The position numbers and the translations under genes are program-made. From a virus, in the IMG/VR virus record IMGVR_UViG_3300043464_002550, positions 1 to 24,020 of that record: a stretch of DNA of 24,020 nucleotides, one strand, 5' to 3'. Numbering within the stretch: position 1 is the first letter of the stretch; every line of letters starts with the position of its first letter. Shown piece after piece: positions 5,139 to 23,981 of the stretch. Under the pieces are notes generated by a model that worked only from the letters and a program-made list of their open reading frames with translations, was not told the DNA's origin and did not search any database.

Positions 5139-6161
5139 TTAGATCTCATATGCATTCAAGGAATTGTTCAATTGTTGAGTCACGCGAACAAATGTCGTGC
5201 GCTTACTCAACTCCCTCAATTCACTTGCTCCAACATAGGTGCATGCTGAACGCAAACCACCTAAAATATCTTTCATTGTTCTACTGACTTCACCACGATA
5301 TGGAATCTCAACTGTCTTGCCTTCAGAGGCGCGATAGTTTGCCACACCACCATTATGTAAATCCATGGCAGTGTCAGAACTCATGCCATAGAACTTGTTA
5401 TCACCAAAAGGAGATGCTCCACCTTCTTTGTGTCCAGCAAGCATTCCACCAAGCATCACAAAGTCGGCTCCCGCAGCAAATGCTTTCACCACGTCTCCAG
5501 GAACGGTACACCCTCCGTCCGCTATAATATGACCCTTGAGACCATGAGCAGCATCTGCACATTCAATAACCGCACTCAACTGCGGGTAGCCGATACCTGT
5601 TTTCTTTCGTGTTGTACAAACAGAACCAGGACCAATACCAACCTTCACAACGTCTACACCTGCGAGAATTAATTCTTCAGTCATCTCTGGTGTGACAACA
5701 TTTCCCGACATGAGCACAATGTAAGGATAACGATCGCGAAAACGCTTTACGAATTCTACAAACTGTTGTGTGTAACCATTCGCAACATCAATACAGACGC
5801 GCATGTGTGGCTGTCCAACAATGCTGAAAACGTTACTAAACTTTTCAACATCTTTATCACTGATACCAAGAGAGTAGATTGTACTATTCAGTTTCTTCTG
5901 GAAATGGTTAATTAACTCAACGTCTTTATAATGTTTTGTGAGAGCAACCATGCAACGATGTTTGTTTAGTTCATCGTCCATTCCGAACGCACCAACACCA
6001 TCCATGTTAGCCGCCATGATTGGAACACCATACCATGAATTGCCACTTCGGAAAGTAAAAGTTCTTTCTAACTTTACTTGGCTACGAGATTCTATTGTAG
6101 ATCTTTTAGGAACAATCAAAACATCTTTATAATCTAACTTCACATCTTCAATGATACGCAT
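5139..6161 (-). CDS. guaC: GMP reductase (GuaC)
   Basis: A 340-residue TIM-barrel enzyme very similar to E. coli GuaC (347 residues) along its whole length: [53 protein letters not shown] with catalytic C182, [60 protein letters not shown] reductase converts GMP plus NADPH to IMP and ammonia. It lacks the CBS domains of bacterial IMP dehydrogenase. It sits immediately upstream of gp33, two bases from its start, so it is probably co-transcribed with the replication block and may rebalance purine pools. The ribosome site is GAGG. All key residues seem present. Confidence 0.95.
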
Positions 6162-6794: not shown

Positions 6795-6820
6795 GTTTCG
6801 AGTCTCCATTATTGCAGTGG

Positions 6821-6852
6821 AAAGAAAAGGTTGGTGGTTCGCACCACCAACC
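6821..6852 (-). terminator. Intrinsic terminator after the tmRNA
   Basis: On the - strand a perfect 10-bp stem GGTTGGTGGT / ACCACCAACC closes on the loop GCGA and is followed by TTTTCTTT. It lies just downstream of the tmRNA coding piece and upstream of the SleB-type gene. Confidence 0.9.
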
Positions 6853-7146
6853 CAGACCTTTCTGTTACCGAGCGGTCAACTCTTTGTACTCAGTGTGCTT
6901 ATTAAGCAGCAAGAGCCATAGGTGTAAATGAATCATCGTTTGCATTTACGTTTTTTGCGCTGATTAAGTCAGTCGCCTCACTGGTAGCCTTTGGTTTATT
7001 ACTTGCCCTGTCGAAGCCAAATTCATCCCCATAAGATAGCCACCACGTACATTGCTGAAGAGGTGATGGGCATTTGGTGGAGATGTCGGGGGTCGAACCC
7101 GAGTCCAGAACACCTTTAGTCAGAGGTTCACTACCATTAATCAATC
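6853..7146 (-). ncRNA. ssrA: Circularly permuted (two-piece) tmRNA
   Basis: Read on the - strand, the tRNA-like 3' part comes first: a T arm (CTCGGGTTCGACCCCCGA), then CATCTCC, discriminator A and CCA (7077-7075). A 44-base spacer (7074-7031) follows. The 5' part then starts GGGGATGAATTTGGCTTCGA at 7030. GGGGATG pairs with CATCTCC, with G-U as the third pair, the alanine identity element. CTACCA in the 5' part pairs with TGGTAG upstream of the T arm (helix 2). The resume GCA at 6943-6941 opens the tag ANDDSFTPMALAA, ending TAATAA at 6904. The tag resembles proteobacterial tags (ANDENYALAA) and ends in the protease signal ALAA. tmRNA frees stalled ribosomes and tags their products. The left and right boundaries are approximate. 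Confidence 0.92.
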
Positions 7147-7295
7147 AAGAATTGTGGCTTTGTCTGTTCGTTGAGTTGCTTTTGCTGTTGTTCCAAATGA
7201 GCCTTGTATTGTTCATTTGTCATTGCATGCAAGCCAATGCAGTAACCAGTTGGACTACGTCCACAGCCACATTTAATTTGTTTCACGTCTTCCAT
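7137..7295 (-). CDS. Small CDGSH-like metal-binding protein
   Basis: A 52-residue protein: MEDVKQIKCGCGRSPTGYCI, then GLHAMTNEQY and a Gln-rich helix. The pattern CxCxxS(x4)CxGxH resembles the CDGSH iron-sulfur motif (CxCxxS/T(x3)PxCDGxH), one residue shorter and without the Asp, so it may bind Fe-S or zinc. GGAG lies seven bases before the ATG. Its last bases overlap the presumed 5' end of the tmRNA acceptor piece, so mRNA and tmRNA precursor are probably one transcript cut by host RNases. The product is inferred from the motif only. Confidence 0.7.
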   Translation of the reverse strand: MEDVKQIKCGCGRSPTGYCIGLHAMTNEQYKAHLEQQQKQLNEQTKPQFLID

Positions 7296-7717: not shown

Positions 7718-8290
7718 TTAAGCAGCGTTCAAAGTGCTTTCGCCAACCTGACGATTGCACTGGCAAAGTTCACCTGTCTGTAGCGCATCAAGAACACGAA
7801 GTGTCTCATCAGCGTTACGACCGACATTTAGATTATTCACAGTAACATGCTGAATGACATTTTCTGGGTCAACAATAAATGTTGCACGAAGTGCAGCACC
7901 TGCTGGCTTGTAGAAAACACCAAGTTGTTGAACAAGACCTTGTTCCTCATCATGCCACTCATCACTGCGTGCAGTGTCAGCAAAGAACCAAGAGGTAGTT
8001 GCTTTGAGACCTTCATGCGCATTCTTCCATGCGAGTTTGCAGAATTCATTGTCTGTAGAGCCAATGAGAAGAACTGCGTCACGGTCCGCAAAGTCCTTGT
8101 TCAATTTATCGTATGCCACAATTTCTGTTGGGCAAACAAAAGTAAAATCTTTTGGATAGTAAACGATGACCTTCCACTTACCTTCAAAACATTTTTCTGT
8201 AATCTTTTGAAAGGCATTGTCAGGTGTGAGAGCACCTGGCTTCACGCCAGTGATAACAAATTGTTCTAACTTATCTCCAACTGTCTTCAT
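7718..8290 (-). CDS. 2-Cys peroxiredoxin (AhpC/TSA family)
   Basis: A 190-residue thioredoxin-fold peroxidase. The peroxidatic site is DFTFVCPTE with C53; the C-terminal GELCQCNRQ holds Cys at 176 and 178, one of which should be the resolving Cys. The segments FCKLAW, LGVFYKPAGAALRATFIVDP and NVGRNADETLRVLDALQTGE are typical of AhpC-like enzymes. It would reduce hydrogen peroxide or organic peroxides with electrons from a host reductase; no AhpF, AhpD or thioredoxin gene is seen nearby. GGAG precedes the ATG by seven bases. The leader has a hairpin and a tandem repeat. It looks complete and functional. Confidence 0.93.
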   Translation of the reverse strand: MKTVGDKLEQFVITGVKPGALTPDNAFQKITEKCFEGKWKVIVYYPKDFTFVCPTEIVAYDKLNKDFADRDAVLLIGSTDNEFCKLAWKNAHEGLKATTSWFFADTARSDEWHDEEQGLVQQLGVFYKPAGAALRATFIVDPENVIQHVTVNNLNVGRNADETLRVLDALQTGELCQCNRQVGESTLNAA

Positions 8291-20367: not shown

Positions 20368-20991
20368 TTAAAATTTATTTGTGATCCACATATTGCCTGC
20401 AACAGAGATGCGAACTCCATCACTGGTTGTAAATGGGTATACACAATGGAGCATTTGATTTGGGAACATCAGAATTCTTCCCTCGTCTGATTTGTTGATC
20501 CAAAGTGTCATCGTACTTACACCGTTTGTCAGTGTTGAATATGTGAATTCAAATGCAGCCTTTTTTAGATTATCATTTTTCTTTGTATAATAATCTACTT
20601 TTAATTCTTCATCAATATCATATGGAATGTTAACCCAAATGACAAACGATGCCTTACCACCATGATTGTGATTTGGATTATACTCACCACGTCGCTGATG
20701 ATTCACCCAAACATCATTCACAATTGGAATCTGATCATTGTTTAAATTTGTCTCCACACCAAATGTATGTCGCCATACGCTATACATTTCTAGAAGATAA
20801 GAACATAGTTGCGGATGCTCTTGGTGTGGATACTGATACTCTTCTTTGATATATGCAACAAGACTGTCGTTATACTTTACTCTTTTATTTCTCTCGTCGA
20901 GCACACGCTGCTTCAGATCCTGAAAAATATCATTTGGAAGCCTTCCATCTAGAATTCCAGGATTCCAAGGGTTCAATACTGAATATTGCAT
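20368..20991 (-). CDS. Putative 2OG-Fe(II) oxygenase-like protein
   Basis: A 207-residue protein. The core shows NPNHNHGGKASFVIWVNIPY with H108 and H110, then MFPNQMLHCVYPFTTSDGVR with H182, followed by R194-ISVAGNMWI. This His...His...Arg layout is that of double-stranded beta-helix oxygenases and resembles the neighbouring oxygenase, with HxH instead of HxD. The N-terminal half (helical, DVWVNHQRRGEYN just before the core) is similar to other aquatic-phage proteins. Substrate unknown. Moderately sure of the fold, less of the activity. Confidence 0.72.
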   Translation of the reverse strand: MQYSVLNPWNPGILDGRLPNDIFQDLKQRVLDERNKRVKYNDSLVAYIKEEYQYPHQEHPQLCSYLLEMYSVWRHTFGVETNLNNDQIPIVNDVWVNHQRRGEYNPNHNHGGKASFVIWVNIPYDIDEELKVDYYTKKNDNLKKAAFEFTYSTLTNGVSTMTLWINKSDEGRILMFPNQMLHCVYPFTTSDGVRISVAGNMWITNKF

Positions 20992-22050: not shown

Positions 22051-22392
22051 TTAAATGGCAAAAGATGTCCCACAACCACAAGACCCTTGCATATTTGGAT
22101 TTTTAATTACAAATGAACTGCTGAATAGTTTCTTTTCAAAATCTATTATAACACCATCAACATATGGATAACTGAATGGGTCAACAATCACTTTGATATT
22201 GTGTTGCTCAATCATTGTATCATCTTCTTGAATTGTGTCTTCAATGCTAAAACCATATTGCATGCCAGAACAACCACCACCCTCAGCATGAATGCGAAAA
22301 AGAAGGTTAGGTGTATTCCAGGCATTGCGATGATCCTTGATCATTGCCTCTGTGATTTTATCTGCTGCAGATTTTGTAAGTGTAATGTTCAT
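22051..22392 (-). CDS. A-type iron-sulfur cluster carrier (IscA/ErpA/HesB-like)
   Basis: A 113-residue protein of normal family length. The three cluster-binding Cys are present: C41 in HAEGGGCSGMQYGFSI, and C105 and C107 in GSCGCGTSF. VDPFSYPYVDGVIIDFE is also typical (usual form: D..S...L.G..IDY). These proteins accept Fe-S clusters from IscU-like scaffolds and pass them to target enzymes. It lies between two tRNAs. It could supply a phage or host Fe-S enzyme; phage-encoded homologues are known from aquatic phages. Confidence 0.92.
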   Translation of the reverse strand: MNITLTKSAADKITEAMIKDHRNAWNTPNLLFRIHAEGGGCSGMQYGFSIEDTIQEDDTMIEQHNIKVIVDPFSYPYVDGVIIDFEKKLFSSSFVIKNPNMQGSCGCGTSFAI

Positions 22393-22649: not shown

Positions 22650-23315
22650 TCAAGTGATCTTAATCCAATGTCTTTCTTGAGGTAGAGTTACATCTCCAAT
22701 AGAGATTGGGAAACTGACGCTCATTCTCTTCATAAGACTTGTTGCACGATGATAGACACGCATTGGAACGAAAATCGCATCACCAGGAAGAAGAACTTCA
22801 TCAATGACTGGTTGTTCTGGTAAGAAATTCATATTTCTTGCACCCATCACACCTTCATCCCAAACTTCAAATCTTGTTTCACCTTCCATCTGAACAATCA
22901 GATTGTGTGAAGTATCCCAGTGAATACCCCATCCATTTTCATTTTCGCTCAAATTGAGATAAATGTGAGCATCTGCGCATGCGCGTGTATTTGTAAATGC
23001 TTGTTCTAATTGTCCACAAATTTCGTTGATTTCTTTGTTAACTCTTGAACAATCAGAAAAATAACAATGATGTTTTTTAATCACTTCATTCAAAAGAGTT
23101 GGTGGGTAGGTGTTGACATCAGACATCCAACTTTGTCTATCCCACTGATAACCTTCACCATTGTTCAGAACTTGAAATCGCGATGGATTAATAAATGGAC
23201 GAAGATTTAAAAGATTTTCAAGGTCTTGCCATGAAAAGATCTTTGTGAATTCTTGTCGAAATACGGCAGGTTTCAGTTCCTTGACTGCTTCTAGAACATT
23301 TTGCCTAATTTGCAT
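22650..23315 (-). CDS. JmjC/cupin-like Fe(II) oxygenase
   Basis: A 221-residue protein. The iron-binding facial triad appears as H132-W-D134 in GWGIHWDTSHNLIVQMEGET and H189 in GDAIFVPMRVYHRATSL, followed by MSVSFPI. This is the layout of JmjC/Cupin_4 oxygenases, including ribosomal-protein hydroxylases of the RoxA (YcfD) type. The N-terminus FTKIFSWQDLENLLNLRPFI and SRFQVL also fits that family. The substrate may be a protein; unknown here. The stop lies just before tRNA-Cys. Confidence 0.82.
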   Translation of the reverse strand: MQIRQNVLEAVKELKPAVFRQEFTKIFSWQDLENLLNLRPFINPSRFQVLNNGEGYQWDRQSWMSDVNTYPPTLLNEVIKKHHCYFSDCSRVNKEINEICGQLEQAFTNTRACADAHIYLNLSENENGWGIHWDTSHNLIVQMEGETRFEVWDEGVMGARNMNFLPEQPVIDEVLLPGDAIFVPMRVYHRATSLMKRMSVSFPISIGDVTLPQERHWIKIT

Positions 23316-23384: not shown

Positions 23385-23666
23385 TCATGTTTTGATACCT
23401 TTATCTAAAGGTGTTACTGGAAAAACATCAGGTGCGGGTTCATTGGTGTTTTGTTCAACTACTATTAGCACCAATTCATCTATTTTTTTACCAGGAATCC
23501 AACAACCCTTTTCCACAATCTTATCTTTCTTAGAAACCCAATAAATGAATTTATCAGAATGCATTCTTGCAGGACATGGATCCCAAGTATGAACGACTTG
23601 AGTTTCTGTGTCGCGATTATAAAAGAACGCAACATCTCCGTTAGGAGGCAAATCAATTATTGGCAT
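23385..23666 (-). CDS. 93-residue protein of unknown function
   Basis: From ATG 23666: MPIIDLPPNGDVAFFYNRDT, THTWDPCPARMHSDKF-like segment (VVHTWDPCPARMHS), KIVEKGCWIPGKKIDELVLI, ending in a Pro-rich tail. Probably a small beta-rich domain with two Cys. GGAG lies seven bases before this ATG; the longer in-frame start at 23690 has none. A candidate structured RNA lies about 35 bases upstream. No family recognised. Confidence 0.62.
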   Translation of the reverse strand: MPIIDLPPNGDVAFFYNRDTETQVVHTWDPCPARMHSDKFIYWVSKKDKIVEKGCWIPGKKIDELVLIVVEQNTNEPAPDVFPVTPLDKGIKT

Positions 23667-23698
23667 AAAATATCTCCATGGTGTTAACATATAATTCC

Positions 23699-23780
23699 AA
23701 AAAGTGCTGGATGGGATAGTTGGGTTTGCTCACTCCAGGCATCCGATGAAGGCGACACATTACTGCTCGCCACATCCAGC
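23699..23780 (-). ncRNA. Candidate structured RNA or 5' leader element
   Basis: Between tRNA-Arg and the 93-aa gene. On the - strand GCTGGATG (23780-23773) pairs over 60 bases with CATCCAGC (23713-23706), enclosing a perfect GGCGA/TCGCC hairpin and further partly paired sequence. The closing stem is followed by AC and five T, as in a terminator or attenuator. No tRNA cloverleaf can be drawn and no ORF fills it. I do not recognise the class. Confidence 0.5.
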
Positions 23781-23826
23781 GATCCTAAATTAGTTGCTTC
23801 CTCTTTTTTGTACTATGGATCCAATT

Positions 23827-23903
23827 TGGTGCCCCTTGAAGGACTTGAACCTCCGACCTCAACCTCCGTAGAGTTGCGTTCTAATCCACTGAACTAAAGG
23901 GGC
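23827..23903 (-). tRNA. tRNA-Arg(ACG)
   Basis: Acceptor GCCCCTT/AAGGGGC, discriminator A, encoded CCA. Anticodon loop CTACGGA on stem CAACT/GGTTG. Canonical D loop with GG and T loop TTCAAGT. It would need host TadA to make inosine at position 34. Confidence 0.93.
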
Positions 23904-23906
23904 AAA

Positions 23907-23981
23907 TGGTGCCAAGTGTTGGTATCGCGCCAACCTATCAAGTTCTTCAGACTTGCGCTAATCTATCTCAGCTAACTTGGC
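23907..23981 (-). tRNA. tRNA-Phe(GAA) with non-canonical elbow
   Basis: Acceptor GCCAAGT/ACTTGGC with encoded CCA. Anticodon loop CTGAAGA on stem CAAGT/ACTTG. T stem GTTGG/CCAAC is perfect, but the T loop is CGCGATA and the D loop GAGATAGATT lacks GG. Confidence 0.83.

Follow-up and report, generated by a model that had tools for sequence, protein, structure and literature searches.

Results

A three-way-junction RNA in a viral tRNA array

The window, i.e., the whole stretch of 24,020 nucleotides that was analyzed (positions 1 to 24,020 of IMG/VR virus record IMGVR_UViG_3300043464_002550), contains a tRNA array in which a gap at 23691-23826 harbors no ORF of at least 50 aa. The element described here lies in this gap, 46 nt downstream of a gene for tRNA-Arg(acg) detected by tRNA search (23827..23903, minus strand). 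It is followed by a 93-aa frame from the ORF list that lacks a Pfam match (23388..23666, minus strand, ATG at 23666). The first-pass annotation had noted an 8-bp stem, a GGCGA/TCGCC hairpin, and five T on the minus strand at this site, all of which were found in place by direct reading; the ORF-free setting inside the array was likewise as described.

On the minus strand (23780..23706), the element forms a three-way junction composed of the 8-bp closing stem P1, a GNRA-capped stem P2, and a stem P3 with a conserved loop. This structured RNA measures 75 nt from P1 to P1 (23706..23780, minus strand), an assignment based on its fold, covariation, and a covariance-model match. P1 pairs the 5' strand GCTGGATG (23773..23780, minus strand) with the 3' strand CATCCAGC (23706..23713, minus strand); read on the plus strand, GCTGGATG occupies 23706-23713 and CATCCAGC occupies 23773-23780. 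The P2 hairpin (23751..23771, minus strand) reads GGCGAGCA-GUAA-UGU-G-UCGCC, with its GNRA tetraloop at 23760-23763, and is followed by the joining segment J2/3 (23738..23750, minus strand) with the nearly invariant CGGAUGCC. P3 (23714..23736, minus strand) consists of GG/CC, an AU bulge, and 3 bp, closed by the loop GAGCNANYCCA (23721-23731). A run of five T seen by direct reading 3' of P1 (23699..23703, minus strand) is not conserved family-wide. The minus-strand fold of 23703-23780 reached -31.5 kcal/mol (z -3.99), and none of 200 dinucleotide shuffles was as good; the plus-strand fold of the element was weaker (z -2.28, 4 of 200 shuffles as good). The first-pass annotation had not recognized P3, the GUAA tetraloop of P2, or the inter-stem sequence as the most conserved part.

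Relatives among uncultivated viruses

Exact copies of a 23-nt interior piece of the RNA are present in four other IMG/VR contigs, where both stems carry compensating changes. Pattern scans combined with covariance models revealed the RNA in 40 further IMG/VR contigs, giving 27 distinct sequences overall, 26 of them full length. Covariance model R1, searched against 52 sources (the window and 51 of 84 candidate loci), recovered all 41 loci including the window, with E values from 1.8e-24 to 1.8e-11; its match in the window spans 23706-23787 on the minus strand and scores 105.8 bits. True members accounted for 26/52, 39/48, 38/38, 37/49, and 39/58 stretches in the successive IMG/VR pattern scans, and the 19 new loci of the 39/58 scan were checked with a second covariance model, R2. 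Because the last two scans (37/49 and 39/58), which used looser or differently placed patterns, added no true member, the family looks complete in the IMG/VR collection as far as the patterns used reach.

Beyond this collection, a scan of GTDB genomes returned seven stretches, all of them chance matches without the structure, and blastn against INPHARED, PLSDB, and E. coli genomes yielded no homologue. In nine genomes of isolated phages, R1 gave no significant match (one hit, E 2.2). Exactly one copy of the RNA was present in each of the 32 records searched whole, and a search by DNA similarity detected no second copy in the window's own record. Locus L067, a chance match, was removed from the alignments. 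Five loci with a P2 insertion (L003, L059, L064, L066, and L068) were left out of alignment A3 and restored in A4, and L057, which is cut by its contig end, was kept outside the conservation and loop counts of 26 rows.

Stems covary around a nearly invariant core

The stems were scored on 21 distinct rows as P1 with 8 bp, P2 with 8 bp and one bulge, and P3 with 2+3 bp around the AU bulge. Pairs were formed in 98.2% of cells, and 11 of the 21 pairs were changed on both sides in relatives (5/8 in P1, 3/8 in P2, and 3/5 in P3). Cells changed on both sides numbered 59, compared with 17.2 expected, and 0 of 500 shuffles reached the score; structures slid along the alignment left only 29 to 46% of cells paired. 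Compensatory base changes are thus present in all three stems, as is characteristic of a structured RNA, and the check for them that the first-pass annotation had proposed came out in favor of its candidate, with extensive changes and stems kept. P1 varies from 5 to 17 bp among relatives, the longest being that of L074. G-U cells far outnumbered A-C cells (32 versus 1, or 7 versus 1 when one constant pair is subtracted), which fixed the RNA strand as the minus strand of the window, as had been suggested.

Conservation was higher in the core loops than in the stems. Mean column identity was 97% in the P3 loop and 92% in J2/3, compared with 79 to 81% in the P1, P2, and P3 stems and 47% in the 5' flank; 8 of 11 P3 loop columns and 9 of 13 J2/3 columns were invariant across 26 rows. 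The core around CGGAUGCC...GAGC...CCA is nearly invariant across the family. The P2 loop, matching the GNRA expectation, was GUAA in 24 and GCAA in 2 of the 26 distinct full rows.

Several other pairings and readings were considered. An alternative P3 pairing, GGAU/AUCY, showed zero changes on both sides and was rejected; the retained pair (A3 columns 52-74) has some. An extra covarying pair (A4 columns 54-74) is based on three rows only, and GGAUGCC may form a pseudoknot with the P3 loop, in columns that hardly vary. A short coding gene was also discarded, as each of the six frames contained a stop in at least 7 of the 26 distinct rows.

Genomic settings

Twenty loci, the window included, lie in tRNA arrays, 7 lie by a split tmRNA, and 14 have neither setting (L005 was counted as a tRNA array through its identity with L003). 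In all 17 arrays measured, which are T4-like, the next gene downstream was tRNA-Gln, at a distance of 6 to 11 nt in 15 of them; L005, whose motif is identical to that of L003, and L047, where the contig ends, do not enter these spacings. In six arrays, the upstream tRNA ends 5 to 6 nt before the RNA. The window has no tRNA-Gln after the RNA and carries the 93-aa frame there instead. The placement in tRNA arrays could be mere inheritance inside one phage group. At six tmRNA loci, the RNA is situated just 5' of the acceptor piece, and in L024 it is flanked by the acceptor and coding pieces, within the intervening segment of a permuted tmRNA gene (L024:1083-1497, plus strand).

The remaining loci belong to podovirus-like or unassigned phages with very different gene content. 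Carriers are unrelated, as illustrated by a T4-like gp32, by a podovirus-type internal virion protein, helicase, and primase, and by a T7-type polymerase and primase-helicase. Neither a tRNA nor a permuted tmRNA was detected in 9 of 22 records, many of them partial. The self-contained fold is thus conserved independently of neighboring genes.

Among 24 loci scanned for promoter-like sites, only 3 reached p<0.05, where about one is expected by chance. One of the loci, L066, has a promoter-like, near-consensus TTGACT-16-TATAAT six bases 5' of P1 and a T run directly 3' of P1.

Other RNAs and genes in the window and in carrier contigs

In several T4-like arrays, a second, larger structured RNA (176 to 254 nt) was found upstream of the small RNA (L004:3326-3503, minus; L010:2276-2489, minus; L011:1615-1794, plus; L013:2393-2646, minus; L031:3264-3439, plus; L054:1103-1282, plus). 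Among its six sequences, 21 of 41 predicted pairs were changed on both sides, and no Rfam match was obtained. The window retains only its 3' end, at about 23792-23809 on the minus strand. A third conserved and probably structured stretch of ~120 nt occurs directly 5' of tRNA-Ala (L004:3583-3705, minus; L033:2357-2478, minus; L021:1097-1218, plus; L006:9204-9326, minus). It likewise lacks an Rfam match, and 5 of its 24 predicted pairs were changed on both sides in four sequences. Three carrier contigs contain Rfam RF02939, the COG2908 RNA (L021:3935-3979, plus; L013:10775-10819, minus; L006:4552-4596, minus), and in L064 the RNA is followed by a tRNA-like 3' half with a T arm (8214-8265, plus), whose tRNA-Sec match of 20 bits is below the cut-off.

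The window also encodes a permuted two-piece tmRNA with the tag ANDDSFTPMALAA (6811-7167, minus strand) and a tRNA at 23910-23981 (minus strand) that was detected by Rfam, missed by ARAGORN, and read manually as having the anticodon GAA (Phe). Five host-like metabolic genes, all on the minus strand, code for an Fe-S biosynthesis protein (22051-22392), a JmjC/cupin protein (22650-23315), a 2OG-Fe(II) oxygenase (20368-20991), a peroxiredoxin-type protein (7718-8290), and an IMP dehydrogenase/GMP reductase (5139-6161).

Searches against known RNA families

At gathering cut-offs, Rfam 15 covariance models placed no family on the motif, and their matches in the window were tRNAs and the tmRNA only. 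At E values up to 10, the motif remained unmatched by Rfam, including riboswitches, ribozymes, manA, wcaG, ROOL, and GOLLD; a further search at E values up to 3 likewise left the motif unmatched, and snoR30 in L064 reached E 0.37, below its cut-off. Models for tRNA and tmRNA detected the neighbors of the motif in the window and not the motif itself. These results agree with the first-pass view of an unassigned structured RNA, perhaps a phage noncoding RNA, that is neither a tRNA nor a known riboswitch, and show no match to the manA and wcaG classes it had named for checking. No description of this RNA was found in the literature searched; most subscription papers lie outside that coverage, and an earlier report is possible.

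Discussion

A probable trans-acting small RNA

We consider it rather likely, judging from sequence comparisons, that the element belongs to a new family of small stable RNAs (~75 to 95 nt) that phages encode and that act in trans and probably have their own job during infection. A trans-acting RNA fits the conserved core, the single copy per record, the occurrence in unrelated phages, and what look like two modes of expression. Judging from the spacing to neighboring tRNAs, the RNA of T4-like phages would be excised from the tRNA/tmRNA precursor by the enzymes maturing the adjacent RNAs. Its ends would be set by 3' processing of the upstream tRNA and by RNase P at the 5' end of tRNA-Gln, a cut after which a short 3' tail, often rich in U, would remain. 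Certain other phages may transcribe the RNA from a sigma70-like promoter of its own. More tentatively, the closed P1 may protect the RNA ends, and the invariant core may bind one conserved host partner (a protein, an RNA, or a small molecule) that would be present in several bacterial groups. The RNA might then regulate host machinery, possibly that of translation or RNA processing, or serve as its decoy.

Candidate targets in E. coli were compared directly: similarity and complementarity to 16S, 23S, and 5S rRNA and RNase P RNA did not exceed 40 mononucleotide shuffles, and mimicry of or antisense to these RNAs was rejected since the best scores fell inside the shuffle range. A suspected resemblance to RNase P RNA was equally unsupported. 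A 12-nt complement in L099 was set aside as well: the surrounding stretch has no annotated tmRNA gene, and the letters involved are variable among family members.

A bolder version, to which we assign a modest chance, is that a trans-acting RNA with an aptamer-like or catalytic core, common to unrelated phages, captures a host molecule as an anti-host or anti-defense RNA. The captured molecule may be a signaling nucleotide, a defense nuclease, or a translation factor, and such an RNA would be the counterpart of protein sponges.

It seems improbable that the RNA is a self-cleaving ribozyme separating the pieces of phage polycistronic transcripts, with the invariant core as its catalytic center. 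The compact junction, freely varying stems, and GNRA loop would suit a ribozyme, as would the location between RNAs that need separation, including the two split-tmRNA pieces in L024. However, many loci have no neighbor needing separation, no known Rfam ribozyme matched at E values up to 10, and the conserved positions exceed what small ribozymes usually need.

Since downstream genes differ and a T run is absent at 14 of 25 loci, a cis-acting role is unlikely, be it as a riboswitch or as an attenuator of the next gene with P1 and the T run as terminator. The family does show aptamer-like conservation, a run of at least four T follows P1 at 11 of 25 loci including the window (hand count), and a glutamine riboswitch is located at the split tmRNA gene of phage Melnitz (PMC9004378). 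Yet the downstream neighbors (tRNA-Gln, tmRNA, a Cas4-type exonuclease, unnamed genes, and in L058 a frame on the opposite strand) have nothing in common, and no Rfam riboswitch matched. A strand-exchange switch was rejected, as only 15 of 26 rows allow full alternative pairing between GGAUG and the P1 3' strand, whereas the inner five P1 pairs are complete in 26 of 26. The first-pass idea of an attenuator for the 93-aa gene fares no better: adjacency of this gene to the RNA is not conserved, and its single relative found, a 17-residue match in L002, is in a locus without a copy of the RNA. The conserved terminator and conserved downstream gene of an attenuator were thus not observed. Overall, the structured phage RNA proposed at first pass is supported, whereas the attenuator idea is not.

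Finally, a tRNA-array spacer or processing signal without its own function, e.g., a degenerate tRNA or an intrinsic terminator, is very improbable: the position is one where a tRNA could sit, but the RNA is conserved in phages without detectable tRNAs, its core loops are more conserved than its stems, and in the window it is matched by neither tRNA nor tmRNA models.

The RNA adds a compact, strongly supported family to the short list of noncoding RNAs known from phages. Its nearly unchanged core across phage lineages points to a conserved host partner, and its size of ~80 nt allows easy synthesis, pull-down, and probing. The old question of the role of non-tRNA RNAs in phage tRNA clusters thereby becomes directly testable.

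Comparison with known phage RNAs

Known phage RNAs include ROOL, hundreds of bases long, and the T4 stable RNAs C and D (species 1 and 2), which are stable non-tRNA RNAs from the T4 tRNA precursor. The new RNA is likened to RNAs C and D by description, and its blastn search of INPHARED, a collection with many T4-like phages, returned no relevant match. In the OM43 phage Melnitz, a glnA (glutamine) riboswitch is found at the split tmRNA gene (PMC9004378); both RNAs adjoin a two-piece phage tmRNA, whereas the RNA described here has no glnA match and also occurs far from tmRNA. The manA and wcaG RNAs are structured RNAs of T4-like phages from marine samples; manA commonly lies in the 5' UTR of a metabolic gene, and wcaG is presumed to act as a regulator of adjacent genes (PMC2864571). 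The new RNA matches neither model and shares with them its structured nature and its occurrence in T4-like phages. ROOL and GOLLD are described as structured RNAs of phages or prophages with unknown function, often close to tRNA islands, with GOLLD extending over hundreds of bases (PMC12286853). The RNA reported here is, by comparison, likewise a phage structured RNA near tRNAs, without an Rfam match and far shorter.
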